Origin: Streptomyces violaceusniger Tu 4113
GTDB taxonomy: Bacteria > Actinomycetota > Actinomycetes > Streptomycetales > Streptomycetaceae
Reading direction: 5' to 3'
Assembly (NCBI RefSeq): GCF_000147815.2
Contig: NC_015957.1
Coordinates: forward strand, 1,178,001 to 1,242,000
DNA length: 64,000 nt
Of the stretch, positions 42,493-61,071 are shown piece after piece. The first letter of the stretch is position 1. The number at the start of each line of letters is the position of its first letter. A model generated the notes under the pieces. It was given only the letters and a program-made list of their open reading frames with translations, did not search any database and had not been told where the DNA came from. The translations under genes were made by a program, and so were the position numbers.

Positions 42493-43581
<1,089 letters not shown>

Positions 43582-44266: not shown

Positions 44267-46759
44267 CTACTCGGTGCGCAGGCCCTCCGGGCGCATCATG
44301 CGCCACAGCGGCGGCAGGCTGGCCAGGGTCACCACCAGGATGACGCCCGCGCCGATGCCGGTCATCGCGGCGAGTCCGGCCCAGTCCACGGCCAGCGGCT
44401 GGCCGACCATCTTCAGCAGCAGGACGCCCAGTGCCAGCCCGCCCGCGAGCGACAGTGCGAGGCCCAGCACCACCGGGACCGCGGTCTGCCACAGGATCGA
44501 CCAGCTCAGCGTGGAGCGCCGGGTGCCGAAGGCGACCAGGACCGAGAGCAGTCGCTTGCGGTCCCGCAGTTGCTCCAGGGTGGTCACGATCATGCTGGCC
44601 CCGATGAGCAGCAGGGTCGAGGTGGCGCCGATGAACAGGACGTTGCGGATCGTCTGGAACTCGGACGACTGCGACGAGCTGGTGATTTGCGTCACGTCCA
44701 GCGTCGGGGCGATCGTCACGCTGGCGTTGCGTACGTACTCGTCGGCGTCCGGCACCTTCGGGTCCAGCCTGAGCATCGCCACCGCCTGCGGGTTGGCCAG
44801 GTCCGAGACGTCGAAGGCGCCGGGGGTGGCGAAGATGCCGGAGTGCAGGGCGCCGGTCGGGTCCTCCCTGGACTCCACCTTCTTGGCCGAGCGGGGGACC
44901 GTCCACAGCTTCTGCTTGCCGGGCGTGGGCATGTCCTCGTCGTCGAAGGCCACATTGACCTGCGCGCCGGGCTTCGCGAAGGCGTTGTCGGGGCCCGTGT
45001 ACTCCGGGTCTCGGGTGACGATGAAGGCATCGCCGTCCCGGCAGCTCGTGATGTGGGCCAGCTCGCGCAGCGCCGGGCAGCCGGCGACGGTGAGGGAGTT
45101 GGTCCGGATGTCGGCCGGGTCCTTCGCCTTGCTGTGCGCGTCGGAGATGGAGCCCTCGGTGATCTCGAGCACGCTGCGCACGCCCTTGGCCGCGCCGAGC
45201 CGGTCGAAGGCGTCGCGGGCCTGGGCGCCGTTGTCCACCTTCATGTTCATCATCAGCTGGGCGCGGTTCGGGTCCTGGTTCGTCTCCTCGGTGCTCTGGC
45301 CCTCCACGCTCGCGAAGAGCATCTGGAGCGCGATGGCCCCGGCGACCGCCACCGTGATGCCGCTGACCGCGCGAGCCGCGGTGCCGCTGCTGAGCTGGAG
45401 CCGCCGGGTGGCGAGCAGCCAGGGCACCGAGCCCTTGCCGAAGCGCTCCACGACGGACTCGACCAGCCACGGCAGCAGCGCGGTGGTGCCGATGAGGAGC
45501 AGCGCGGCACCGGCCGCGGCCTGGTACGACTGGAAGTCACCGCCCGAACTGCCCACCCCGAAACCGCCCGCGAGCGGAGCCAGCAGCCCGATGCCGAGGA
45601 GCGGCAGCAGCAGCCGCCACCACAGCCGCCGCCGCTTGGGGGTGGCGTTCCGTACGACGCCCAGCGGTTCGATGGCGATGGCGCGCAGGGCGATGAGCGT
45701 GACGGCGACGGCCGAGGCGGGCACGGTCAGCACGATCGCCAGGGCGAGCGGGAAGGAGGGCATGATGTCGGAGGTGAAGAAGCTCAGGCCCATCATCGAG
45801 GCACCGCCGACGGCCTCCCGCAGCAGCAGGAAGAGCGTGGCGCCGACCGCGAGCCCGAGGATCGAGCCGAAGAGCGACTCGCCCGCGGCGATCCGCCGGG
45901 TCATGTGGATATCGGCGCCCACCAGCCGCAGCGCGGCCAGTCTCCGGTCGCGCCGCTCGCCGCCGAAGCGTGCGGCGGTGGCGATGAAGATGAGCACCGG
46001 CAGCAGCAGCACCACACAGCCCATGACGACCAGCAGCACCAGCGCGGGGTCCAGCTCGTCCCCGCTGGTGTCCTGGGCACCCCAGCTGTCGAGGTGGTAG
46101 CTGGAGGGGACGCTGTCGAACTGCTTCGGGGTGATCCCCGCGTAATAGCGCAGCTCGGTGGGGCCGGACAGTCCGCTGTCGCCGATCACCCCGGCGACGC
46201 GGTACGGGAAGCGGTCCCGGAGCAGCTTGCCCTCGTCGGAGTCGAGCAGCTTCTTCAGCGCGGGGGAGACATACATCTCCCCGGCGGCCGGAACGCCGCT
46301 GACGCCCGGCGGGTGGGGCGGACGGGCGCCGTCGGGCGCCATCACCATGCCCGAGATGTCCACGTCGCGGAAGTCGGTGTCCGCCTGGGCGACGTGGACC
46401 GTGCCGGGGCCGGGCTCCGGCTCCTCCCCGAAGCCGAAGGCCGCGATGGCGTTGGACCGCTCGGTGCGCCCGGCGTCCATGGTGGGGACGGAGGCGGCGA
46501 ACAGCAGCAGTGTGACGCCAAGGCCCACCCCGACCGCCGTCATGATCGTCCTGGCCCAGCTCTCCCGGCCGCCGGTGACCGCGAACCGCCCGCCCATGGC
46601 GAGGTCCGCGGCCCAGCGGGTGATGCCGGGGCGCTGCGGGGGCTCCTCGGGGGTCGGGGGCCGGGGCGGTACGGCCGTCAGGGTCGCCTGGCCGGTGCGG
46701 CCGCTCGTACCGGTGTGGCCGTCGTCGGGGCCGGCGTGGCCGTCGTCCGGGCCGCTCAT
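44267..46759 (-). CDS. FtsX-like ABC transporter permease (copy B)
   Basis: An 830-residue paralogue of the permease at 13,377-15,788 with the same FtsX modules and matching TM segments. The extracytoplasmic loops differ clearly, and it has a longer N-terminus with a duplicated GPDDGHAGPDDGHTG peptide. The frame is intact and Streptomyces-like. It overlaps its ATPase gene by 4 nt. The loops are the most diverged part, so the two transporters may recognise different ligands (inference). Confidence 0.87.
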   Translation of the reverse strand: MSGPDDGHAGPDDGHTGTSGRTGQATLTAVPPRPPTPEEPPQRPGITRWAADLAMGGRFAVTGGRESWARTIMTAVGVGLGVTLLLFAASVPTMDAGRTERSNAIAAFGFGEEPEPGPGTVHVAQADTDFRDVDISGMVMAPDGARPPHPPGVSGVPAAGEMYVSPALKKLLDSDEGKLLRDRFPYRVAGVIGDSGLSGPTELRYYAGITPKQFDSVPSSYHLDSWGAQDTSGDELDPALVLLVVMGCVVLLLPVLIFIATAARFGGERRDRRLAALRLVGADIHMTRRIAAGESLFGSILGLAVGATLFLLLREAVGGASMMGLSFFTSDIMPSFPLALAIVLTVPASAVAVTLIALRAIAIEPLGVVRNATPKRRRLWWRLLLPLLGIGLLAPLAGGFGVGSSGGDFQSYQAAAGAALLLIGTTALLPWLVESVVERFGKGSVPWLLATRRLQLSSGTAARAVSGITVAVAGAIALQMLFASVEGQSTEETNQDPNRAQLMMNMKVDNGAQARDAFDRLGAAKGVRSVLEITEGSISDAHSKAKDPADIRTNSLTVAGCPALRELAHITSCRDGDAFIVTRDPEYTGPDNAFAKPGAQVNVAFDDEDMPTPGKQKLWTVPRSAKKVESREDPTGALHSGIFATPGAFDVSDLANPQAVAMLRLDPKVPDADEYVRNASVTIAPTLDVTQITSSSQSSEFQTIRNVLFIGATSTLLLIGASMIVTTLEQLRDRKRLLSVLVAFGTRRSTLSWSILWQTAVPVVLGLALSLAGGLALGVLLLKMVGQPLAVDWAGLAAMTGIGAGVILVVTLASLPPLWRMMRPEGLRTE

Positions 46760-47442
46760 CGGGCGCCCGCCATGTCCCGCGCCTTGCCGTCGCGCACGAC
46801 GACCTCGCGGTCGGAGTACGCGGCGACCCGCGCCTCATGGGTGACCAGGACGACGGCCGTACGGGTCTCCCGGGCCGCCTCGGTCAGCAGCTCCATGACC
46901 CGCTCGCCGTTGAGCGAGTCCAGCGCGCCGGTCGGCTCGTCGGCGAACAGCACCCGCGGCCCGGTGACCAGCGAGCGGGCCACCGCCACGCGCTGCCCCT
47001 GACCGCCGGAGACCTCGCCGGGCCGCTTGGCCGCCACGGCGTCGACCTCCAGCCGCTCCATCCAGGACAGCGACCGGGCCTCCGCCTCCTTGCGCTTGAC
47101 CCCGTTGAGCCGCAGCGGCAGCGCGACGTTCTCCACACAGGTCAGCTCGGGGACGAGCTGGCCGAACTGGAAGACGAAGCCGAACTCGCCACGGCGCAGG
47201 CTGCTGCGCTCGCTGTCCGACATGGCGGACAGCTCGCGCCCGCCGTAGTGCACCGAGCCGGAGTCCGGCCGGACGATCCCGGCCAGGCAGTGCAGCAGGG
47301 TCGACTTGCCGGAGCCGGAGGGGCCCATGACGGCGACGACCTCGCCGGGGTGGATGGAGAACTCCGCGCCGTCCAGCGCGGGCGTAGGGCCGTACGACTT
47401 GTGCAGGTCGTCGGCCATCAGCAGGGATCCTGTCGGGGTCAT
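46756..47442 (-). CDS. ABC transporter ATP-binding protein (copy B)
   Basis: A 228-residue ATPase, the same length as copy A and largely identical. Walker A is GPSGSGKST, the signature VSGGQGQRVAVARSLV and Walker B RVLFADEPTGALDS. Differences cluster in the N-terminal strand (MADDLHKSYGPTPALDGAEF) and near LSWMERLEVDAVAAKRPG. It overlaps padR copy B and permease copy B by 4 nt each. Confidence 0.92.
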   Translation of the reverse strand: MTPTGSLLMADDLHKSYGPTPALDGAEFSIHPGEVVAVMGPSGSGKSTLLHCLAGIVRPDSGSVHYGGRELSAMSDSERSSLRRGEFGFVFQFGQLVPELTCVENVALPLRLNGVKRKEAEARSLSWMERLEVDAVAAKRPGEVSGGQGQRVAVARSLVTGPRVLFADEPTGALDSLNGERVMELLTEAARETRTAVVLVTHEARVAAYSDREVVVRDGKARDMAGAR

Positions 47443-47972
47443 GAACGCACCGCCTTGGCGAGTTGGCCGAGGCGGGCGGCGGTGAGTTCCAGCCAGCGCA
47501 GATCGGCCTCGAGATGGAAGAGGGCGTGGTCGCAGATGAGTTGGTCGCTGAGGTCGCCTTCGCGCTTGCGCTGGGTCAGTTCGCGCATCAGCCGCAGATG
47601 TTCGGCGCGTTGGACGTCGAGGAGATCGGCCGCGTCGCGCCCGGTGAGCAGGGCGATGACGACCTTGGTGTAGAGGACCGACTGGAGATAGGGCTCGGGC
47701 TTCTCGGGCTCGGTGAGCCAGTGCTCCACATCGGTGATGCCCGCGTCGGTGATGGCGTAGCGCTTGCGCTCCGGGCCACCCCCGTGCTCGATGCCGTCGA
47801 CCTCCACCAGGCCGTTCTTCAGCAGCCGGGACATGGTCGAGTAGACCTGCCCGTAGTGCAGCGGGCGGTCGTGTCCGAATCGTTCGTCGAAGGCTCTCTT
47901 GAGGTCGTAGCCGTGGCGCGGGCCGCCCTCGAGGAGTCCGAGCAGGGTGTGGCCAATTGACATGCCCAGCAC
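47439..47972 (-). CDS. PadR family transcriptional regulator (copy B)
   Basis: A 177-residue protein identical to PadR copy A except DVEHWLTEP for DVQHWLTQP. The nucleotide sequence is also nearly identical, in contrast to the permease. The operator TATAC-N7-GTATA is retained upstream. The two regulators should therefore bind both operators and may form mixed dimers. ATG 47963 is an alternative start. Confidence 0.92.
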   Translation of the reverse strand: MLGMSIGHTLLGLLEGGPRHGYDLKRAFDERFGHDRPLHYGQVYSTMSRLLKNGLVEVDGIEHGGGPERKRYAITDAGITDVEHWLTEPEKPEPYLQSVLYTKVVIALLTGRDAADLLDVQRAEHLRLMRELTQRKREGDLSDQLICDHALFHLEADLRWLELTAARLGQLAKAVRS

Positions 47973-48050: not shown

Positions 48051-48668
48051 TCAGGGCTGATTCGCCTCGACCATGCCGGCCGCGCCGTCCACGATCTGCC
48101 GGCGGGCCGCCACCACCGCGCCCGCCTGCTGGCGCTGGAGCATCGCGGAGGCAATCTCGGGGGCGTAGGCGAGGTGGGTGAAGCGCGATTCGATGATGCG
48201 GACCCCGGCCGCCTCGACCCGGGCGTGCAGTTCGATGGCGAGCTTCTCGGTGATCTCCTCGGCGTTGCCGCGCAGCGAGAGGGCGTCCTCGTCATGGGCG
48301 TCGTACGGGTACTCGATGGCGATATGCCGCACCGCGGCCTCGGTCTGGGTGGAGACGAACTCCAGGAAGTCGTCCACCTCGAACATCGCCTGGGCGGTGT
48401 CCTCGACCCTCCAGACGACGACCGCGGCGAGCTCGATCGGGTTGCCGTAGGCGTCGTTGACCTTGAGGATCGGGGTCTCGTGGTTGCGCACCCGGGTGGA
48501 GATCTTCTCGCGGCTGGTGAGCGGGTTCACCCAGCGCAGCCCGTCGGTGCGGATGGTGCCGCGGTAGCGGCCGAAGAGCTGGACCACCCGGGCCTCACCG
48601 GGGGCGATGGTGTTGAGGCCGCACATGGTGAGGATCGCGGCGACGATTTTCGCGTGTCCCTTTCTCAT
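48051..48668 (-). pseudogene. truncated SPFH/Band 7 gene (duplicate)
   Basis: About 190 codons match the central SPFH domain of the protein at 17,376-18,332. Both N-terminal helices are lost: similarity stops at GCGGCGACGAT, 48,647, and the frame is now preceded by unrelated codons MRKGHAKI. The C-terminal ~50 residues and the RHH partner gene are removed by a deletion, so the frame ends MVEANQP. Without its anchor it is unlikely to function as a membrane scaffold, although the frame is open. Confidence 0.8.
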
Positions 48669-49094
48669 TGACGATGGCCCTCGTCCGGCCCAAGGGACAA
48701 CACTGTGAGACGTACGCCTGTCCTGTCGCATTGAAGCTGTCGGATTCGCACTCGTTCTCGTTCAAGCTGTCGGATTCTCATCGCATCACGCGCTGAGCGG
48801 CGAACGAGACTCCCCCGAGGTGACAAACGGGACAGGTTCGGGCCGTGGGCGAGTCCGCTGCCGTGAAAGCCATGTCCTTTGAGAAGGCCGAGGGTCAGCC
48901 GGAGCGGTGGCGTAGAGCTGTGCTGGCTGTAGGCATGCCGGGCGAGCTTGGCGGAGCAGGTCGTGGGTCGACAAAGGCAAGACCGTCGGTGCCGCGCACA
49001 GTCGCAGCGCGGGCCGGAGGTAACTGGAGCTGGTCGCGTGGCACGTACTGTCCGACCTGGTGGGGTAGTTGACCTTGCTCTAGGGTCATCATGC
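48669..49094. other. gene-poor stretch with a 30-bp-spaced direct repeat
   Basis: No gene recognised. AAGCTGTCGGATTC occurs at 48,734-48,747 and 48,764-48,777. Open frames on both strands lack conserved motifs and have irregular codon use; they could be transposase debris. Confidence 0.5.
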
Positions 49095-50519: not shown

Positions 50520-51440
50520 CTAGCTGGTCAGGGAGGGTTGACGTGGTTTCAGGTTCACTTGTTCGGCCGTTGCCTGGCTGGCGTAATGCTTCTCCTCGTA
50601 CTCGATCGGGCTGAGGTAGCCGAGCCGTTTCTGGATGCGGCGGGGGTTATAGAAGCCGTCGATGTACTCGAAGAGCGTGAGGTTCGCTTCGGCTCTGGTG
50701 GGGAAGACGCGGCCGCGGATGCACTCGGTCTTGATGACCATCCACAGGTTCTCCGCCAGGGCATTGTCGAACGAGTCGCCGACCGAGCCCATGGACGCCT
50801 GGATACCGGCCCTGACCAGGCGTGTCGTGAGCTTCACGGACGTGTACTGACAGCCGTGGTCGGCATGGTGAATGAGCTCACCGGGGGCGACTTCGCGGCT
50901 GGCCAGGGCATACTCCAGCGTGGTCAGGACCAGATCGGCGTCTGCGCGGGCGGAGGTTTCCCAGGCCACCACCCGGCGGGAGAACGCGTCGCGGATCGCG
51001 GACAGCCACAGCGGGCCCTCCTCCGTCGCGATCATGGTCAGGTCCGTGACCCACAGCCGGTTCGGCACGTTCGCGGTGAAGTCGCGTTGCACCAGGTCAG
51101 GGGCCGGTTCCGCGTCCGGGTCACGTCGGGTGAAGCCCTTGCCCCGCCGGGGACTGATCCCGGCCAGGCCGGCTTGGCGCATGAGCCGTTCAATGCGTTT
51201 GCGGCCGACGTGGATGCCTTCACGCCGGAGGACGGCGTGCACGCGGGGTGAGCCGTAGATCCCGCCGGAGTCGGCGTGGACCTGCCGGATCTTCCCGGTG
51301 AGCTCGGCGTCCTGGCGGCGTCGCTCGCATGGCTCCTTCTCGGCCTGGCGCCAGCGGTAGTAGGTGGAGGAGGGGATGGAAAGTTCCCGGAGTACGGGCT
51401 CGACCCCCAGGTGCGGGTGCGCATCGACGAGCGCGGTCAC
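50520..51440 (-). CDS. IS3-family transposase OrfB (integrase catalytic domain)
   Basis: A 306-residue OrfB. The HTH_21 region is GGIYGSPRVHAVLRREGIHVGRKRIERLMRQAGL. The rve DDE core has WVTDLTMI (first Asp), the LIHHADHGCQYTS second Asp, and GSVGDSFDNALAENLWMVIKTE supplying the Glu. Normally it is made with OrfA as a frameshift fusion; here OrfA is truncated to its last residues, so the element is probably immobile. Confidence 0.92.
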   Translation of the reverse strand: MTALVDAHPHLGVEPVLRELSIPSSTYYRWRQAEKEPCERRRQDAELTGKIRQVHADSGGIYGSPRVHAVLRREGIHVGRKRIERLMRQAGLAGISPRRGKGFTRRDPDAEPAPDLVQRDFTANVPNRLWVTDLTMIATEEGPLWLSAIRDAFSRRVVAWETSARADADLVLTTLEYALASREVAPGELIHHADHGCQYTSVKLTTRLVRAGIQASMGSVGDSFDNALAENLWMVIKTECIRGRVFPTRAEANLTLFEYIDGFYNPRRIQKRLGYLSPIEYEEKHYASQATAEQVNLKPRQPSLTS

Positions 51441-52003: not shown

Positions 52004-52101
52004 TCAGGCTGCGTGAGCTTTGGGGCGCCCGACGAGCCGGCCGAGCGAGTCCCAAGACCGTTGGTCGGTGATCCGGCCTTGCCCGCTTCGCTCACCGGCT
52101 T

Positions 52102-52222
52102 CAGTGCCGCAGGTCGTTCTCTTCCCGCAGGTGCGACAGCTTCTCGGGGTTGCGCACCGCGTTGAGCCCGGTGATCAGGCCGTCGTCGATGCGCACCGCC
52201 ATGACGGTGTCGATCGCGCCGC
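52102..52222 (-). pseudogene. C-terminal fragment of an ECF41/SigJ-like sigma factor
   Basis: Forty codons read IDTVMAVRIDDGLITGLNAV then RNPEKLSHL and end at TGA. This is the closing strand-helix of the SnoaL-like domain in SigJ/ECF41 sigma factors (recalled pattern DDGLITGLYYVRNPEKL). All sigma-2 and sigma-4 regions are missing. It abuts the integrase fragment directly. Confidence 0.65.
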
Positions 52223-52727
52223 TGCAAGACCAGGCTCGTCCCGCTCAAGCACCGGCGGGAGGGCGAGTACCGCGATGTGCTGGTGGCGCCGTTCATCGTC
52301 GAGGAATGTCATGGGCATGAGGCCATGTGCCGACCGATCCCTCCTGAGTTTCAGGACAAGGCCGGACGGCCACGGGTGGTCGAGTTCTTCTTCGCCGCCG
52401 CGGGATCGCGGGAAGGGCGTCATGCCCACGGCCACCACCTACGCGTACCACTTTCGGAAGGGGCAGATCGCGGCCGGCATCACCAAGCCCGACGGGACCG
52501 CGAAGTACACCCCGCACTCGCTGCGGCACTTCTTCGCCTCGACCGCATGGGCAAACGGCGGACCGATCCACGAGGTCTCGCGCTGGCTCGGCCACAAGTC
52601 GATCAAGACCACCGTGGACATCTACGGTCACCTGGTCCCCGAAGCGTGGGACCGTTGTCGGGACGTCATGCGGAACGCCATGCGCCCGGCTGTGACAGAC
52701 TCGCAGGCGCCTGCCTCCGCAGCGTGA
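52223..52727 (+). pseudogene. 5'-truncated, frameshifted tyrosine integrase
   Basis: The segment starts mid-gene with KTRLVPLKHRREGEYRDV. Near 52,410-52,425 it shifts to another frame and continues MPTATTYAYHFRKGQIAAGI. The catalytic C-terminus is present: TPHSLRHFFASTAWANGG (HxLRH with the Arg) and VSRWLGHKSIKTTVDIYGHLVPEAWD (His and the nucleophilic Tyr). The N-terminal arm-binding and core-binding domains are gone. It ends 100 bp before the middle att site, the usual int-att arrangement. Confidence 0.85.
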
Positions 52728-53419: not shown

Positions 53420-54778
53420 TCAGCCCCCGTCCTCGTCTTCCTCGTCCCTTACGCGAGGTGCGGCGGCCCGGTGCGGGCTGTGCGAGGTGTCCCAGAGGTG
53501 CGGAGGTGTCATGTCGTCCTCGCTTGTCTCCCACCAGCCTTGGTTTTGTTCGCCCGCGCCGCTCTCCGCCGCCCCCGGCCTGAACGTGTCCGCGCCCGCG
53601 TCGGCATCCGGGGCCGCGGCCGCGTCGCTGAACGGCGAGCCCTCGGGGGCTGGGAAGCCCGCCGACCAGGGCCCCGTGGTGTCCCCCTCGCCCGATGGGC
53701 CACCCTCCGTCCCCTCGCCCCCGTCCTCGTCGTGTGCCGGCAGAAGGGTCCGCCTGATCTCCTCGGCGGCCTCGTCCAGCCCGGCCGCTTCCAGACTCCG
53801 CACCACACGGTGCACGAACACCGTGTACTCGTCCATGTCCGGCTTCAGGCCCACCGCCGCCAGCAACAGGAGCAGCCGATCCGAAACCCCTACCTCCTCC
53901 TCGCGTTCGAACGTCCCTTTTCCCTGGCCGTGTCCCTCCCACAGCGGGCCCCCGACGGTCGCTTCGCTCCGCGCGCCCACAGGCGGGACGAGCAGGTGGC
54001 GGAAGAGCTCGGGCACCTCCTCGTCGTTGGCCGCCGCCGCGATCTGGGCGAGCGGGCCGATCATGTCGACCGCCTTCTCGATTTCGTTCTCGTGACGGGA
54101 CAGCCACCACACCACCGCGCTGCCCGCGCTCTTGAGCACGTCGTCACCGAGATAGCGCCGCTTGTTGCGCTCGTGCTGACGCTCGTACTCCCAGATCTCC
54201 TCTTCCTTGCGAAGGTCGTTCAACTTCCGCAGACGCTCACGGTCGGCGGGGGCGAGGGTCAGCGTCACATCGGCCGCCAGGGCCTTCACCCGTCCGCTCC
54301 GGTCCGGGAGCGGGACGCCCAGCTCCCCCTCCAGGAGATACCGCGCGAAGCTCGCCCGGCCGGGCTCTTCCTGGCGGACGACCTCCAGGGCCCGGTTGAC
54401 GATCGAGGACAGGGCGAGGGCCGGGGAGGCGCCGTTGGACCGTTCGGCGTGGTTGAGGGCCGGCCTCCACCACACGGTGGCGGAGAAGAGGAAGTCGTAG
54501 CCGTCCGCCGCGCTCGGCAGTGCCGCGTCGACCACCCGCGTCTCCTGGTACGGCTGCTCCGTCGGCACCGCTGGTGGCTCAGGCTCCCCGGGCTCGTACG
54601 GGTCGGCTGACGCGCCGCCACCGATGAAGACCGTCATCACGAGCAGCAGGGAGCCAGAGGCCGTGACCATGGACATGAAGCCCCACAGCCACGCCGACCA
54701 GTGCAGGAGGTTTCCGAGAACAGCCGGTGCGAGGCTGCAGAGAGCGACGAACAGCAGGCTGCGAAAGCGGTGTTTCAT
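53420..54778 (-). CDS. membrane-anchored protein, third gene of the TIR operon
   Basis: A 452-residue protein of no known family. Two N-terminal helices (~residues 7-25 and 28-52, LLFVALCSLAPAVLGNLLHW and GFMSMVTASGSLLLVMTVFIGGG) precede a soluble region. A conserved-looking N-terminal part has DGYDFLFSATVWWRPALNHAERS; then come charged helices (RLRKLNDLRKEEEIWEYERQ) and SAVVWWLSRHENEIEKAVDMIG. The last ~110 residues are acidic and disordered, ending DEEDEDGG. ATG 54778 overlaps the stop of the upstream gene by 4 nt. In conflict systems a two-helix protein beside a TIR gene often acts at the membrane; that role here is inference. Confidence 0.72.
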   Translation of the reverse strand: MKHRFRSLLFVALCSLAPAVLGNLLHWSAWLWGFMSMVTASGSLLLVMTVFIGGGASADPYEPGEPEPPAVPTEQPYQETRVVDAALPSAADGYDFLFSATVWWRPALNHAERSNGASPALALSSIVNRALEVVRQEEPGRASFARYLLEGELGVPLPDRSGRVKALAADVTLTLAPADRERLRKLNDLRKEEEIWEYERQHERNKRRYLGDDVLKSAGSAVVWWLSRHENEIEKAVDMIGPLAQIAAAANDEEVPELFRHLLVPPVGARSEATVGGPLWEGHGQGKGTFEREEEVGVSDRLLLLLAAVGLKPDMDEYTVFVHRVVRSLEAAGLDEAAEEIRRTLLPAHDEDGGEGTEGGPSGEGDTTGPWSAGFPAPEGSPFSDAAAAPDADAGADTFRPGAAESGAGEQNQGWWETSEDDMTPPHLWDTSHSPHRAAAPRVRDEEDEDGG

Positions 54779-56763
54779 TGTGCCTCTTCCGTGGTCCGTG
54801 GTCCGGCGCCCGCACGCTCCGTACTCTCCGTGCGGGCGTACTGTGCGTGGTCGATGTGCTGCCAGAAGAGGGCGGCGACGGCCGTCGCCTGGGAGGGACG
54901 GCGCGCGGTCCCCGCCCAGTCGCAGGCGATGGCGTAGAGGCGGTGGAGAGCGGCCGCGCGGCCGCGCGTCGCACCGACCATCACGCCCAGCGCCATCTCC
55001 CGCGTGCTGTCGCCCGCCGCGGCGGTCAGCCAACTGATCACCAGCGGCTTCCAGAGCTCCGTCGGCGGCTGGGAGAAAACCGTCTCCCAGCCCAGGAACA
55101 GGTCCGGCCACGGCGGCGGGTCCGGTGCCCGGTCGCTCCTCAACAGCTCCGTGAGCAGCCGGAGATGGGGATCCGCCCCGCGCGGCTCCCGACGCGTCCG
55201 GTCCCGCAGGCGGTCGATCAACAGCCGGTAGAGTCGACGGTCGCGACCGCCGAGGTCGAGAAGGGCCTCCCGGGCTTCGCGCGCCGCCTCCCCCTTCCGT
55301 ACGGCGAGGTAGTGGAGCCGCACCATCGCCTGATTCGGGTGTGTAGCGCCAAGGCTCTGTCGGCACGCGACGGTCAGGACGCGGACGAGGCCGTCCGACA
55401 AGGGGCCGGACCTCGCGCACTCGTACATCCGCCTGCGGAACCAGCCCCCGAACCTCTCGTGGCTGAGACCGAGTTCGAGGGCCGCGACGGCTCGCGGGTC
55501 GCAGGACGCACCGGTCGCGCTGTTCGCCCAGCGGACCACAAGGTCGAAGAGGTGGTCGGGCCGCCCGACGGCCAGGGACCGCTCGCCGAAGCGGACGACG
55601 ACGCTCACCCGGTCGTCGGCGGTCAGACCGCGGAGCCCGGCGACATGGCCGATCCAGTCCTTGAGGTCGTCGCGCGTCCCGGGGAAGTTCGCCCAGAAGT
55701 ACGTCCGTACCGCGTCGGCGTAGGCCAGCCGCTCGAAGCGGAGCCGTCCGTCCGGGTCTCGCTCGATCCCGAGCGCCGCCAATCGCTCCCCGAAATCCGC
55801 CCGTGCGAGCTCGGTCGTCGTTTCTTCCTCGTGCCTCACCGTCCTCATCAGGCCGTGCCACGCCTCGTAGACGGTGTCGGCGCGGGCCTCCTCGAACACC
55901 GCCGTCGCGAGCAGCAGGGCCCGCTCGGGCGCGGTGCGGACCGTGGCCACCTGTCGGCCCACCTCACCGGCACGGTCGGTCACCGCGTGCAGCGCCTGGT
56001 CGAGCCATCCCGCGAAGTCGGCACCGAACCGGCCGCTGTCGCGAGCGGCCCTCACCAGCCCCGCGAGCCGCGCCAGTTCCCGCATGGGGGAGCGGTCGTA
56101 CAGGCGCTGGAGGTCGGCGCTCCCCAGGTCCGCGGGGCGGAAGGTCATCTGGTCCATGCGGAGGTACCGGGTGACGACGGCGACGCCCCGGGGTCGCCCC
56201 AGCGTCACCGTGGGCGGTTCGAGGTCCGTCGCGTGGGCGTGCTCCATGCCCGACGGCAGGACGACGACCATGTGGGCCCCCGCCTCCTGGACCTGTGACC
56301 GGCGCACGGCCAGGTGGCGCTGGGCCTTGGCGTACGCCTCCTCATCGGCGATCCCGGAGAGGTCAAGGAGGAAGCGGTCCCCCTCACCGGGGGCGAGAGG
56401 GGCCTCGTCCTTGTCCGTGGCGGGAAGCTCCTCGAACCGGACCGCCTCATCGTTGGCGCCCTCGTGCTCACCGAGCTCGTGCAGCAGCATGATCGCCGCG
56501 GCGCGGCGGCCGCTGCCGGGCGGAGCTCCCAGCAGCACCACCGATCCGGGCTTCTCCAGGCGGTCGGCGGCGACGCGGTAGCCCACCGGCGGAACGAACC
56601 GGTCGGCCAGGCGCATCCGGTCCTCGCGGACGATCCGGAGAGACTCGACCCCTTTTCGGAGCATCCAATCCGCGCCGACGCCGTAAAAGACGTACTGGGG
56701 CCCCGGGCCGTTGTTCACCGGGCCACGCGGATCGTTGACGGTGACGCGGTCCTGCTCGGTCAT
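54775..56763 (-). CDS. large divergent P-loop NTPase-like protein of the TIR operon
   Basis: A 662-residue protein. Near residue 79 GSVVLLGAPPGSGRRAAAIML has the shape of a Walker A loop, but the invariant Lys and Ser/Thr are replaced by Arg86 and Arg87. FLLDLSG at ~residue 128 may be a degenerate Walker B. The remaining ~450 residues are Arg/Ala/Leu-rich helices with a repeat-like or STAND-sensor look. Residues 11-24 (DPRGPVNNGPGPQY) match a motif in the TIR protein. Start and stop overlap both neighbours by 4 nt, so the three proteins are probably made in fixed ratio. Family not recognised. Confidence 0.72.
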   Translation of the reverse strand: MTEQDRVTVNDPRGPVNNGPGPQYVFYGVGADWMLRKGVESLRIVREDRMRLADRFVPPVGYRVAADRLEKPGSVVLLGAPPGSGRRAAAIMLLHELGEHEGANDEAVRFEELPATDKDEAPLAPGEGDRFLLDLSGIADEEAYAKAQRHLAVRRSQVQEAGAHMVVVLPSGMEHAHATDLEPPTVTLGRPRGVAVVTRYLRMDQMTFRPADLGSADLQRLYDRSPMRELARLAGLVRAARDSGRFGADFAGWLDQALHAVTDRAGEVGRQVATVRTAPERALLLATAVFEEARADTVYEAWHGLMRTVRHEEETTTELARADFGERLAALGIERDPDGRLRFERLAYADAVRTYFWANFPGTRDDLKDWIGHVAGLRGLTADDRVSVVVRFGERSLAVGRPDHLFDLVVRWANSATGASCDPRAVAALELGLSHERFGGWFRRRMYECARSGPLSDGLVRVLTVACRQSLGATHPNQAMVRLHYLAVRKGEAAREAREALLDLGGRDRRLYRLLIDRLRDRTRREPRGADPHLRLLTELLRSDRAPDPPPWPDLFLGWETVFSQPPTELWKPLVISWLTAAAGDSTREMALGVMVGATRGRAAALHRLYAIACDWAGTARRPSQATAVAALFWQHIDHAQYARTESTERAGAGPRTTEEAQ

Positions 56764-57554
56764 CGTTCGTCGTCCGAGCGCCGGGGCTCACGCTCGAAGC
56801 GCTGGTGGACCGTACCGCCGTTGTCACCCGCGGTGAATTGCACCCCGGTGTTGTCGCCCTGGAAGTGGGGGGCGTTGTATTGGTGGCCGCGACCGGTGTT
56901 CACGGGCCCTTGCGGCTCGTTGACGAAGGTGCCGGACAGATCTCCGTTGAGGTTTCCGATGCCGCCGCGCACGCGCTGCTCGACGTCGCGCGTCCGCATC
57001 CTGGTGTGCCCGACATCCTGGGCCGACTTCTTGCGGGACTTCGCCTCCGCCCCCTCCCGCGCCGCACGGGCATCGCGGTCCACCGCGCCCAGGTCGGGCA
57101 GCAGCCGGGCGAGGGCGTCGCCGAGCGCCGTCAGGTCCGACTCGGCGTTGCGGTGGGCGAACCGCCTGTACTGGCAGTCCGCCAGCTCCCGCAGGTCGTC
57201 CGGGAGAAGGGCGCGGTCGATCCGCGTGGCCTTTCCGACGAGCACGGGAATCACCAGGATCCCGCGGTCGAGCGCGGTCTGGATCTCACGTCGGGTCCAG
57301 TCCTGCTCGGCTTCGAGGGAGGGGCGGCCGTCGGCCCTCCGCACCCCCGCCCAGCGCGGGCCGATCACGGCGAGGAGCGCCTCGCACTCTTCCACCGCCC
57401 TGACCAGTTCCACCGGGAAGCGGTGTCCGAGCTCGATCGAGTTGCTGGCGAAGAAGATCCGCTCGGCGCCGAACCGCCGGGCGAGCTCCCGAGCGATCAT
57501 GGTCGCGGCGGATTCCTCGTCGCCTGTGCGGTAGTTGACGAAGACGTCGAGCAT
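56760..57554 (-). CDS. TIR-domain protein, first gene of the operon
   Basis: A 264-residue protein. The TIR domain spans ~residues 1-150: LDVFVNYRTGDEES, FFASNSIELGHRFP, ALLAVIGPRWAG, and DWTRREIQTAL, where Glu90 occupies the position of the catalytic glutamate of NAD-cleaving TIRs (WxxxE). A charged linker follows, then a Gly/Asn-rich tail with GTFVNEPQGPVNTGRGHQY and GDNTGVQFTAGDNGGTV. The tail motif is shared with the next protein. ATG 57554 follows GAAGGGA. It is likely an NADase or signal-producing effector; location in a mobile element supports a defence role (inference). Confidence 0.85.
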   Translation of the reverse strand: MLDVFVNYRTGDEESAATMIARELARRFGAERIFFASNSIELGHRFPVELVRAVEECEALLAVIGPRWAGVRRADGRPSLEAEQDWTRREIQTALDRGILVIPVLVGKATRIDRALLPDDLRELADCQYRRFAHRNAESDLTALGDALARLLPDLGAVDRDARAAREGAEAKSRKKSAQDVGHTRMRTRDVEQRVRGGIGNLNGDLSGTFVNEPQGPVNTGRGHQYNAPHFQGDNTGVQFTAGDNGGTVHQRFEREPRRSDDER

Positions 57555-57885: not shown

Positions 57886-59133
57886 TCAGTCGTGCGCGGG
57901 GGCGAGTACCCCTGCCAGAGCCGGCTGCAGATCGCGTACGGCCCGGCTGCTCCGGAACCGGGAGAGTTCCCGGGCGAGACGCCGGACGTCGCTGTTCACC
58001 GTCGCCGAGGGCACGGCCGGCATCACCGCCAGGAGCTCCCCGGCGATCGTGCACGCGTGCTCGACCTCTCCGGAGGCGGCGTGGGCCAAGGACCTGCGGA
58101 AGCCGTACCGGGCACGGGTGCGCAGCGCGTGCGGCGGGAGGCGGCGGTACTCCTGGTCGAGGACCTCGGTGGCGGCCTTGGGGCGACCGAGGTCGTGCAG
58201 GCACCAGCCGGTCGTCATCGCCGCCGGATCGCTCACGTGGGTGGTGCCGATCACGGGCTCCGCGCCGCTGCGGGCGTCATCGCTGTCGAGCAGCTCCCTC
58301 GCCCTGTCGAGGCTGCGGAGGCAGTCGCGTTCGTCGCCGACGAGCGCATGTCCCTGCGCCTCCCGCTGGGCCGCGAGTCCCCGGATGCGCGGCGGGAGTT
58401 CGTCGCTCTGGGCCCGGCGGGCCAGGGCGACGGTGCCCGCGGCGTCCCCGCCGTAGAGCGTGACCAGGGCGCGTCGCACGAGCGCGTAGGAACCGAGGTA
58501 CGGATCGCCCCCGGCGCGCGCCAGTTCGGCGGCCTCACCGGTCCAGCTGAGCGCCGCGCCGCTGTCCCCGGCCTCCTGGGCCATCCAGCCGGTGAACTCC
58601 GCGAACCGCGACGCGAGCAGGAGCGCGGGGGCCCGAGTGGCGGACGGGGCGTCGGCGGCCAGCCCGGCGACCGTGCGCGTTTGCGTCTCCAGCAGGGGAA
58701 GCAGGACCTTCGGCGCGGTGGACTGGCCGAGCTGTCGTAGCTGGTCGAACTGCATGCGGAAGAAGGGAAGGAGGGGATCGGCTGCAGAGGGCGCCTGACC
58801 GCCGAGTTTCAGGCCGAGGTCGATCAGCGACCCCGTACCCGCCGCGAGGACCCCCCGACGCCCGACGAGCCAGAGGCTCGGGGTGGCGGGGGGTTCGGTG
58901 GTGTCCGAGTCGGTCTCGGGGCGGACGACCAGGCGCTGCAGCTCACCTTTCGCGCCGAGGAAGGCGTCGCACCGCCGGGCCAGTTCGGGGGACGCGGAAC
59001 GCTCCCCGCGCTCCACCTTGCTGAGGTGCCCCTTGTCGTAATTGAGCGCCACGGAGAACTCGGTCAGAGTAAGCCCCGTTTCCTGTCGCAGACGGCGAAG
59101 TTCCGGGCCGAAACGTAAAGTTGCACTCATCAT
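57886..59133 (-). CDS. XRE-family HTH regulator with TPR-like C-terminus
   Basis: A 415-residue protein. The N-terminal HTH_3/HTH_31 is LRFGPELRRLRQETGLTLTEFSVALNYDKGHLSKVERGERSASPELARRCDAFL. Residues ~100-410 are Ala/Leu/Arg-rich paired helices with periodic small residues, as in TPR sensors of Streptomyces regulators. It sits directly upstream of the TIR operon on the same strand and is the obvious candidate regulator. ATG 59133 is chosen because AAGGGG lies 6 nt upstream; other ATGs are adjacent at 59,139 and 59,130. Confidence 0.85.
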   Translation of the reverse strand: MMSATLRFGPELRRLRQETGLTLTEFSVALNYDKGHLSKVERGERSASPELARRCDAFLGAKGELQRLVVRPETDSDTTEPPATPSLWLVGRRGVLAAGTGSLIDLGLKLGGQAPSAADPLLPFFRMQFDQLRQLGQSTAPKVLLPLLETQTRTVAGLAADAPSATRAPALLLASRFAEFTGWMAQEAGDSGAALSWTGEAAELARAGGDPYLGSYALVRRALVTLYGGDAAGTVALARRAQSDELPPRIRGLAAQREAQGHALVGDERDCLRSLDRARELLDSDDARSGAEPVIGTTHVSDPAAMTTGWCLHDLGRPKAATEVLDQEYRRLPPHALRTRARYGFRRSLAHAASGEVEHACTIAGELLAVMPAVPSATVNSDVRRLARELSRFRSSRAVRDLQPALAGVLAPAHD

Positions 59134-59590
59134 TAACATCCCCTTGAACAGCGACCGTGAGAGCCGTGCGCCCTCACGGGGAACTTTCATGCGACGTTCA
59201 CTGGCTGACACGAAGACCGACCGCGAACACTTGGCGTGACGGAGTTGTTTCGCTTCGCATCCGAAAGTAAGTTTGGCACGAGGTGCGCCTCAAGAATCGG
59301 GGTTCGACGGGGTTGCCCGTTGCCTCTTCTGCTCTCCGTCCGTTCCTTGTAGTGACCGGAGTCGACCACTGGAGTCCGCGCTCCAGGGCGAGATCGCCGA
59401 CCACCTCCTCGGCATCCACCTGGACAACGAAAGCGTGAATTCCGCCTACGGCGCCGGCGTGGCCTTCGGTGACGCGGCATTTGCCTGGGGTGCCGGCCTT
59501 GACCCCTGCTTGGCACTACCGACTCGGTGGCCGCACGGTCCGTAGGGCGCGGGTCCATGACTCGTGACCGGGAGCCACAACTGGCGAAAG
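59134..59590. other. gene-poor spacer
   Basis: About 450 bp between the XRE gene and the ATPase promoter. A fragment in the plus frame reads ALQGEIADHLLGIHLDNESV with Streptomyces-like codons (59,380-59,545) and could be a decayed gene. Nothing else is recognised. Confidence 0.4.
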
Positions 59591-59652: not shown

Positions 59653-61071
59653 GTGGTGGATTTTGTGGGCCGTCGCCAGGAGCTGGCGACGTTGGAGCGA
59701 GAGCTGCAGAAGGTGGCGGCAGGGGTTGGCGGGGAGCGGCCCGGTCGGTGCGTGATGTTGCGTGGGCGGCGCCGGGTGGGCAAGTCGCGACTGGTCGAGC
59801 GGTTTGCGGAGCGCTCCGGAGCCCCGTTCTTGTTCTACGCGGCGACCGGTGCGTCCCCCAGAGATGATCTGGCACGGCTGGCCCGGGACGCCCAAGCATC
59901 GACGCTGCCGTTGGCGGGGCTGGTGGCCGCCGCGCGGCCGGAGAGCTGGGATGCCGCGTTCGATGTGCTGGCCGCGGCGCTGCCCGCCGACCGGGCGAGC
60001 GTGCTGGTCATCGACGAGGTGCCGTACTTGATGGATGTCGATGGCACCTTTGAGGGGATGCTGCAACGGGCCTGGGACCGGGTGCTGGAGACCAAGCCGG
60101 TGCTGCTGGTTCTCATCGGCTCCGATCTGTCAATGATGGAGGCTCTGAACAGCTACGGGCGACCCTTCCATCAACGCGGCCGGGAGATGGTGCTGGGGCC
60201 GCTGAACCCCGCCGAGGTGGGGCGCATGCTCGGGCTGGATCCGGCGGAAGCCTTCGACGCTGCGCTGGTCACCGGGGGATTGCCGCTGATCTGCGCGGAG
60301 TGGCCACACGGCGCGGGGCTGTGGGACTTCCTCAATGAGGCGCTGAACGATCCGGTCTCCGCCCTGCTGGTGTCCGCCGAGCGCTCGCTGGCTGCCGAAT
60401 TCCCCCCGCAGGCTCAGGCCCGTACGGTGCTGGCGGCTATCGGCAGTGGTGAGCGGACCTTCACCAACATCGCCCGTGCGGCCGGCGGGATCGGGGCGAC
60501 GCCGCTGCAGCGAGCGTTGGAGCTGCTTACGGACAAGCGGATCGTGGCCGCGGAGCTGCCCGTATCGCTGCGTCCGTCGAAGGATCGCCGCTACCGGGTG
60601 ACAGATCCCTACCTGCGGTTTTGGCTGCACCTGCTTGGCCCGTCCATGGAGGAGATCGAGCGGGGGCGCGGCGATCTGACCTTGGCGCGGATCAGGGAAA
60701 ACTGGACCAGCTGGCGCGGCCGTGCGATCGAGCCCCTTGTCCGCGAGGCCCTGGCGCGGATACTGCCAGACGACCGGCTGCCCGCGGCCCGCGCAGTGGG
60801 CGGCTACTGGACCCGTACCAACAATGTCGAGATCGATATCGTCGGGGCGGATCGCGCCCCCATCGCCAAGGAGCTGTTTTTCGTCGGCTCCATCAAGTGG
60901 CTGGAGCAGTCGCCCTTCGACCGGCACGATCTGGCAGCTCTCCACCGCCACCGCGCCGCCCTCACCGACGAACCTGTCCCCGTCGTGGCGGTCTCGCGCA
61001 GCGGCGTCGACTGTGCGGGGCTCGATGCCGCCTACGGCCCCCGCGATTTGTTGACCGCTTGGTCGCTGTGA
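59653..61071 (+). CDS. AAA ATPase with DUF234-like C-terminal domain
   Basis: A 472-residue protein of the archaeal-type/MNS-like ATPase group. It starts VDFVGRRQELATLE; Walker A is LRGRRRVGKSR (Lys44-Ser45), Walker B VLVIDEVPYL, with sensor-like VLIGSDLSMME. A winged-helix region (TFTNIARAAGGIGATPLQRALELL) precedes a DUF234-like domain with REALARIL, NNVEIDIVGADRAPIAKELFFVGSIKW, whose E-x-D ... K pattern recalls PD-(D/E)xK nucleases. GTG 59653 follows GGAGG. It is the last gene before attR. Function unknown; a defence or toxin role is possible. Confidence 0.82.
   Translation: MVDFVGRRQELATLERELQKVAAGVGGERPGRCVMLRGRRRVGKSRLVERFAERSGAPFLFYAATGASPRDDLARLARDAQASTLPLAGLVAAARPESWDAAFDVLAAALPADRASVLVIDEVPYLMDVDGTFEGMLQRAWDRVLETKPVLLVLIGSDLSMMEALNSYGRPFHQRGREMVLGPLNPAEVGRMLGLDPAEAFDAALVTGGLPLICAEWPHGAGLWDFLNEALNDPVSALLVSAERSLAAEFPPQAQARTVLAAIGSGERTFTNIARAAGGIGATPLQRALELLTDKRIVAAELPVSLRPSKDRRYRVTDPYLRFWLHLLGPSMEEIERGRGDLTLARIRENWTSWRGRAIEPLVREALARILPDDRLPAARAVGGYWTRTNNVEIDIVGADRAPIAKELFFVGSIKWLEQSPFDRHDLAALHRHRAALTDEPVPVVAVSRSGVDCAGLDAAYGPRDLLTAWSL

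Follow-up and report, generated by a model that had tools for sequence, protein, structure and literature searches.

Amyloid NLR signalosomes of bacteria, known as BASS, were reportedly described by Dyrka et al. in 2020 in J Mol Biol. A comparable principle operates in fungi, where in the NWD2/HET-S, sigma and PP pairs the tail of an effector is templated by a motif at the N-terminus of a receptor. BASS signalosomes are encoded by adjacent or overlapping genes and carry the motif at the C-terminus of the effector and the N-terminus of the NLR; TIR effectors occur in them less often (PMC7889193). In BASS3, replacing a residue of the motif with proline is reported to abolish foci (PMC9815663). 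Here we analysed 64,000 nucleotides of Streptomyces violaceusniger Tu 4113 (contig NC_015957.1, positions 1,178,001 to 1,242,000; "the window" means this whole stretch, part of an 11.1-Mb genome), which contain an operon of three overlapping genes for a TIR protein (gene 1), a protein with a degenerate nucleotide-binding loop (gene 2) and a protein with a predicted SPFH domain (gene 3). We consider it probable, at roughly 60%, that the operon is a membrane-linked prion-like module in which gene 2 templates the tail of the TIR protein and so switches on its NADase. The features of the locus, in positions of the window, are as follows.

57886..59211, minus strand: NsdA-family HTH/TPR-like transcriptional regulator (NCBIfam NF053720, 181.3 bits against a cutoff of 75; HTH_31, 1.8e-12)
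56760..57554, minus strand: TIR protein, 264 aa (TIR_2, 2.5e-9; TIR domain of SARM1, 0.0015 over residues 3-140)
57285..57299, minus strand: W86-xxx-E90, putative catalytic motif of the TIR protein (E90, W86 and D85 each in 80/80 aligned TIRs, duplicate genomes included)
56799..56966, minus strand: TIR tail at the C-terminus, residues 197-252, a candidate region for amyloid-type signalling (conservation 0.94)
56877..56924, minus strand: shared core motif, copy in the TIR tail, residues 211-226 (from local alignment with the gene-2 N-terminus)
56760..56763, minus strand: ATGA start/stop overlap of the TIR gene and gene 2 (from the sequence)
54775..56763, minus strand: gene 2, 662 aa, predicted pseudo-STAND protein (AlphaFold2 (AF2) and Foldseek)
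56692..56739, minus strand: core shared motif at the gene-2 N-terminus, residues 9-24 (local alignment and conservation)
56503..56529, minus strand: degenerate P-loop GAPPGSGRR of gene 2, residues 79-87 (R86 in 75/79)
54775..54778, minus strand: ATGA overlap of gene 2 and gene 3 (from the sequence)
53420..54778, minus strand: gene 3, 452 aa, with predicted transmembrane hairpin, SPFH domain, long helix and disordered variable tail (AF2, Foldseek and VIA-align)
54623..54772, minus strand: predicted two-helix hairpin of gene 3, residues 3-52 (AF2 helices 3-25 and 29-52)
54251..54556, minus strand: predicted SPFH domain of gene 3, residues 75-176

The regulator gene lies upstream on the same strand, 331 bp from the TIR gene. 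The original prediction, made from the letters alone, had named a TIR effector with a WxxxE-type Glu90, an NTPase-like partner with a Walker-like loop lacking Lys, a two-helix membrane protein with a disordered tail, 4-nt ATGA overlaps at both junctions and a TPR-type regulator upstream. These parts and their order are borne out by our analysis; what had been overlooked is the tail motif common to genes 1 and 2 and, in gene 3, the SPFH domain. Its author could match the trio to no system known to it, and in line with this none of the three genes matched a PADLOC model at E<=1, genes 2 and 3 gave nothing above cutoff in Pfam and NCBIfam scans, and our literature searches on the topic found no paper on the trio.

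The trio resembles BASS in its adjacent overlapping genes, in the effector-C/receptor-N motif, in its occurrence in actinobacteria and in the use of TIR effectors, which the review PMC7889193 also mentions. It differs in a receptor with neither a Pfam NACHT/NB-ARC match nor the P-loop Lys, and in an SPFH gene and an NsdA-type regulator as nearly constant parts of the locus. The trio would work like a BASS signalosome. With the fungal pairs it shares the layout of effector tail and receptor N-terminus and, in our own reading of the window, a longer tail in the effector beside one copy in the receptor. It differs from them in that none of 35 TIR tails matched a fungal motif of Pfam and that a TIR domain replaces the HeLo pore domain. 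A TIR domain with a catalytic Glu and an operon partner is also typical of Thoeris and other TIR defence systems; unlike in Thoeris, NCBIfam ThcB4 reached only 14.2 bits (cutoff 220) and PADLOC gave no match. From Avs and bNACHT, NLR/STAND immune proteins of bacteria, the trio is set apart by a separate effector gene joined through a tail motif, by the Arg-substituted P-loop and by an nSTAND3 score below cutoff. Gene 3 shares an N-terminal hairpin, an SPFH domain and a long helix with prohibitin, HflK/C, stomatin and flotillin, and differs from known SPFH proteins by the missing Pfam match, the long variable disordered tail and the operon with TIR and STAND-like genes.

The evidence that carries our interpretation comes from the two tails. 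A short motif rich in Gly, Asn and Gln recurs in both of them, C-terminal in the TIR protein and N-terminal in gene 2, and cognate tails agree better on average than non-cognate ones. In the window, the local alignment of the TIR-tail core with the gene-2 N-terminus scored 63 (row mean 46), and tblastn with the window TIR matched residues 211-226 also to the gene-2 N-termini of three relatives, at 12/16 residues. We collected 80 TIR-bearing loci and took into the tail tests those 76 whose overlap is 4 nt. The 80 TIR sequences, like the 79 gene-2 sequences and the 33 close operons used below, count some genomes twice; such duplicates were removed before the permutation tests by clustering at 60% or 50% identity. 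Among 35 operons with less than 60% identity in gene 2, cognate tails scored 53.0 and non-cognate tails 40.1, a difference reached in 0/20,000 permutations, and the same held for 26 operons below 50% identity (54.2 versus 39.8, 0/20,000). The double-centred diagonal of the scores was positive in 29/35 (Wilcoxon p 2e-6). Three controls were null, namely the TIR body against the gene-2 N-terminus (20.3 versus 20.8), the TIR tail against the gene-2 interior (21.1 versus 20.9) and the TIR tail against the gene-3 tail (25.6 versus 25.8). Codons were shared at 202/383 matched identical residues, near the 186.1 expected from codon usage, and thus the match is mainly at the protein level and best explained by selection. 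Both tails are constrained: in the 33 close operons the TIR tail has a conservation of 0.94 versus 0.87 for the TIR domain, the highest of four TIR stretches compared, and the gene-2 motif reaches 0.88 versus 0.73 for the adjoining linker, although AF2 leaves residues 1-39 unfolded. In composition, the tails (G 0.16-0.20, N+Q 0.15-0.16, charged 0.12-0.16) stand apart from the folded parts (G 0.07, N+Q 0.04-0.05, charged 0.28-0.30).

Gene 1 is probably an NAD-cutting TIR enzyme. Its TIR domain spans approximately residues 1-150 and is followed by the low-complexity Gly/Asn-rich tail; TIR_2 of Pfam scored 38.1 bits against a 28-bit cutoff, and the invariant Glu90 motif aligns with DWVHKE of SARM1.

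The AF2 model of gene 2 (predicted local distance difference test (pLDDT) 85.5, predicted TM-score 0.84) suggests, in our reading, a disordered N-tail (1-39), an AAA+/STAND-like part (approximately 45-265), a winged helix (approximately 300-345) and a helical solenoid to approximately residue 645. Foldseek returned SAMD9 (1.2e-4), ORC (4.3e-4) and the STAND-TPR structure 6mfv (1.2e-3) along with many generic AAA+ rows, and Dark, CED-4 and NOD2 ranked lower. By its predicted fold, gene 2 appears STAND/NLR-like rather than an ordinary enzyme. A Pfam search gave no NACHT or NB-ARC match and placed nSTAND3 below its cutoff (15.3 versus 27.2 bits). The Walker A pattern GxxxxGK[ST] expected of a catalytic STAND NTPase is absent from the 79 sequences: the Lys position of the loop holds Arg in 75 of them and Lys in none, while G85 is kept in 79/79. 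The loop may still bind nucleotide, given that D134 is kept in 74/79.

For gene 3, AF2 (pLDDT 76), Foldseek and VIA-align point to a prohibitin/HflK-like SPFH fold with a long helix after it; sequence searches gave no Pfam match and nothing significant in the PDB. The model places two helices at residues 3-25 and 29-52, and nearly all of the tail 353-452 has a pLDDT below 50. The hydrophobicity of the hairpin 3-52 suggests a membrane anchor. A membrane protein acting as effector or sensor had been proposed here; a membrane protein is supported, and we read its role instead as that of an SPFH scaffold.

The trio is conserved beyond this strain, in other actinobacteria. A protein search gave 295 gene-2 relatives, of which the best 120, those listed, are at least 81% identical (81-95%, the query aside); among these 120, those with a named source are all Streptomyces. 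Gene 2 is present in 63/295 Streptomyces genomes (E<=1e-30) and in 29/394 genomes of the class (E<=1e-3), both tallies including the window's own genome, and relatives extend to Streptosporangium, Sphaerisporangium, Microbispora, Planomonospora, Frankia and others. We examined 67 named loci found via one conserved gene-2 peptide, which makes them a non-random sample. A TIR gene is present in 62 of them, gene 3 in 66 and the complete trio in 62, a co-occurrence that exceeds chance. The TIR/gene-2 overlap is 4 nt in 58/62 TIR loci and the gene-2/gene-3 overlap in 55/66 loci with gene 3; genes in these GC-rich loci were found with a simple script that took the start codon closest to the upstream stop, and the overlap counts thus lean towards overlap. 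One Streptomyces genome (G549) has three gene-2 matches, one a close copy (86%) and two divergent, approximately 20 kb apart. In L093 (Streptomyces diastatochromogenes), L122 (Streptomyces sp. HNM0574) and G601, gene 2 is seemingly split or interrupted, as if the system were decaying in certain strains.

The effector can be exchanged while the matched tails are kept. Among 25 inspected gene-2 relatives lacking a TIR at the partner position, 20 are preceded by a protein that, by its conserved VD and GDG signatures, we read as class III cyclase-like, with only a weak match to a solved cyclase (E 0.25); the profile that finds all 20 was derived from 8 of them. Two relatives yielded no partner (L128, L137). 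The three others, distant relatives, have small upstream open reading frames (ORFs) of approximately 155-195 aa at this position (oriented coordinates: L143, 721-1308; L145, 5425-5892; L146, 5000-5488), which we take to resemble Bell domains; those of L145 and L146 gave nothing over cutoff in Pfam. By eye, the tails of the latter two resemble the gene-2 N-terminal region, and they scored near background. For the tail test 24 non-TIR loci were entered (L128 not among them), with partners picked for their coding potential, irrespective of the motif; no candidate emerged for L137, which left 23 scored pairs. Cognate pairs reached 69.2 versus 37.9 (0/20,000 permutations), and two controls were again null. 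In locus L123, 27/29 core residues are identical, with near identity in L148 too. The codons of both pairs are nearly identical as well (27/30 and 16/17), which suggests that the motif has recently passed, at the DNA level, from one gene to its neighbour; the non-TIR codon test excluded six of the 23 pairs (L126, L135, L136, L143, L145 and L146). A gene-3-like ORF follows the non-TIR gene 2 in 12/25 by profile, and in L123 and L129 (= L020) by tblastn. Two further observations concern these loci. The tail of the cyclase-like effector at L114:8827-9846 has a weak, sub-threshold match to NACHT_sigma, a family of fungal prion motifs (E 0.011), and at L135:9983-10462 (plus strand) a TIR ORF (TIR_2, 118 bits) lies on the opposite strand just upstream of a short gene-2 relative, which seems decayed.

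The upstream regulator changes together with the effector. Of the named TIR loci that could be tested, 59/60 have an NsdA-type ORF no more than 1.5 kb upstream of the TIR gene (58/60 by tblastn), against 0/25 non-TIR loci. A Crp-type regulator precedes the cyclase-like effector in 18/20 loci, one of them (L114) with a Pfam cNMP-binding domain, and no Crp-type ORF was found within 3 kb upstream of the TIR gene in 60 TIR loci. These pairings may have been co-inherited in two clades and do not count as independent events.

Based on these observations we propose the following mechanism. Gene 2, as a degenerate-loop STAND/NLR-like protein, would act as receptor or seed once activated or brought together, perhaps on SPFH assemblies of gene 3 at the membrane. 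Its disordered N-terminal motif would then take up a beta or amyloid fold and template the matching motif of the TIR tail; we propose this seeding because a homotypic motif at effector C-terminus and receptor N-terminus, in overlapping genes of filamentous actinobacteria, is the BASS signature. Templating would cluster and activate the TIR protein, which would cleave NAD+, and the output could be either a nucleotide signal or the depletion of NAD+ together with regulated cell death. The upstream NsdA-family protein might control or read the system. A role in abortive infection is possible.

The strongest alternative concerns the purpose of the system. It could be a developmental or metabolic switch rather than immunity, in which the TIR product or the drop in NAD+ informs the NsdA-type regulator and so controls differentiation or antibiotics; this is a serious, if somewhat less favoured, possibility, and either tail mechanism could serve it. 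In S. coelicolor, NsdA acts as a repressor of differentiation and of antibiotics (PMC12243394). Besides the near-constant regulator, the fixed chromosomal site described below, the high identity among the best 120 gene-2 relatives and the cyclase-like variants with their Crp-type partners speak for such a switch. However, the window regulator is not NsdA itself (23.2 bits against a cutoff of 830), and the patchy presence in Streptomyces is more like that of a dispensable conflict system. The constant NsdA-type partner and the fixed locus keep a developmental signal alive beside infection-triggered death. It is tempting, although doubtful, to go further and see a general amyloid-gated second-messenger switch, in which a pseudo-STAND/SPFH core would template, by a private prion-like motif, an exchangeable effector that handles nucleotides, and a dedicated transcription factor encoded upstream would read the product of that effector. 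In that case the NsdA-family proteins would sense a nucleotide made by the TIR, and prions of bacteria would govern transcription and not death alone.

The templating step itself has to be weighed against several observations that do not favour it. Only 5/35 TIR rows and 10/35 columns have the cognate gene-2 motif as their one top match; in the non-TIR set this holds for 10/23 rows and 10/23 columns. Seven of the 35 TIR operons fall below their own row mean (L008, L014, L104, L106, L115, L120, L121), and the six non-TIR pairs left out of the codon test are at or near background. The cognate motif beats that of the nearest relative in 21/35 with one tie (mean 53.0 versus 49.6), a modest edge which indicates that part of the tail signal is co-divergence. 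Known amyloid-motif families of Pfam were absent from the 35 TIR tails at E<=0.1. Pro lies within the motif in many members. The low Foldseek TM-scores of gene 2 (0.14-0.24 for the query across 50 listed rows, most of them generic AAA+) mean that its NLR-like assignment depends on domain order and weak matches. Finally, the motif does not reach gene 3, so that the role of gene 3 is deduced from gene order alone.

Instead of templating each other, the tails could be ordinary non-amyloid docking peptides, pairing for example as beta-strands in a resting complex, with activation by conventional STAND oligomerisation. Tail matching and constraint are equally expected in this case, and the STAND-like fold with a P-loop that may still bind nucleotide would suit it. 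On the other hand, both partners carry the same and not a complementary motif, the tails are Gly/Asn/Gln-rich and charge-poor, and the layout is like that of known amyloid signalosomes. We regard docking as rather unlikely and prefer amyloid-type templating.

The remaining question concerns mobility. Convergent ychF follows gene 3 in 18/56 long named loci, at 44-2285 bp in 17 and at 7.5 kb in one. In the window, ychF (YchF-GTPase_C, 132.5 bits) ends at 43581, with the same order and the same neighbours beyond, and approximately 9.8 kb separate it from gene 3. Comparison of the loci suggests that this stretch is an insert; between 43770 and 53300 it contains the following.

46756-47442: ABC transporter ATPase
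47439-47972: PadR regulator
48051-48731: Band_7/SPFH protein (81 bits)
50520-51440: IS3-like (rve) transposase
52020-52727: phage-integrase fragment

The transposase and the integrase fragment are confined to this stretch, and thus mobile DNA lies beside the operon and not around it. The original prediction had placed the trio in an integrative element; the recurring ychF site, with mobile genes alongside, speaks against the operon as mobile-element cargo. Gene 2 was found in 0/50,697 phage records and in 1/72,556 plasmid records, on a 2.8-Mb replicon. An AAA/DUF234-type ATPase gene (59653-61071, plus strand) matches the PADLOC candidate PDC-S27 (2.7e-22), and a relative of this ATPase occurs near the operon in 6/56 long loci. 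Immune systems often pair a TIR with a STAND-like protein, and together with the PDC-S27-like ATPase upstream and the nearby transposase and integrase fragment this would fit the initially proposed mobile anti-phage island, but the fixed site, the phage and plasmid counts, the missing PADLOC model and the constant partner from a developmental-regulator family make a standard mobile defence island improbable.

The consulted portions of the BASS literature describe neither the altered P-loop nor an SPFH gene in third place nor regulators matched to the effector. In PMC7889193, the biological role of bacterial amyloid-NLR cascades is called a major blind spot. The trio offers a conserved and genetically tractable system for asking whether bacteria signal by prion-like templating. 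With it, the amyloid-NLR theme would gain an SPFH partner and effector-matched regulators, and its receptors would come to include proteins whose nucleotide loop is crippled and which NACHT/NB-ARC searches would miss. In summary, our data suggest that the module is a little-explored bacterial cousin of the fungal and animal cell-death switches.

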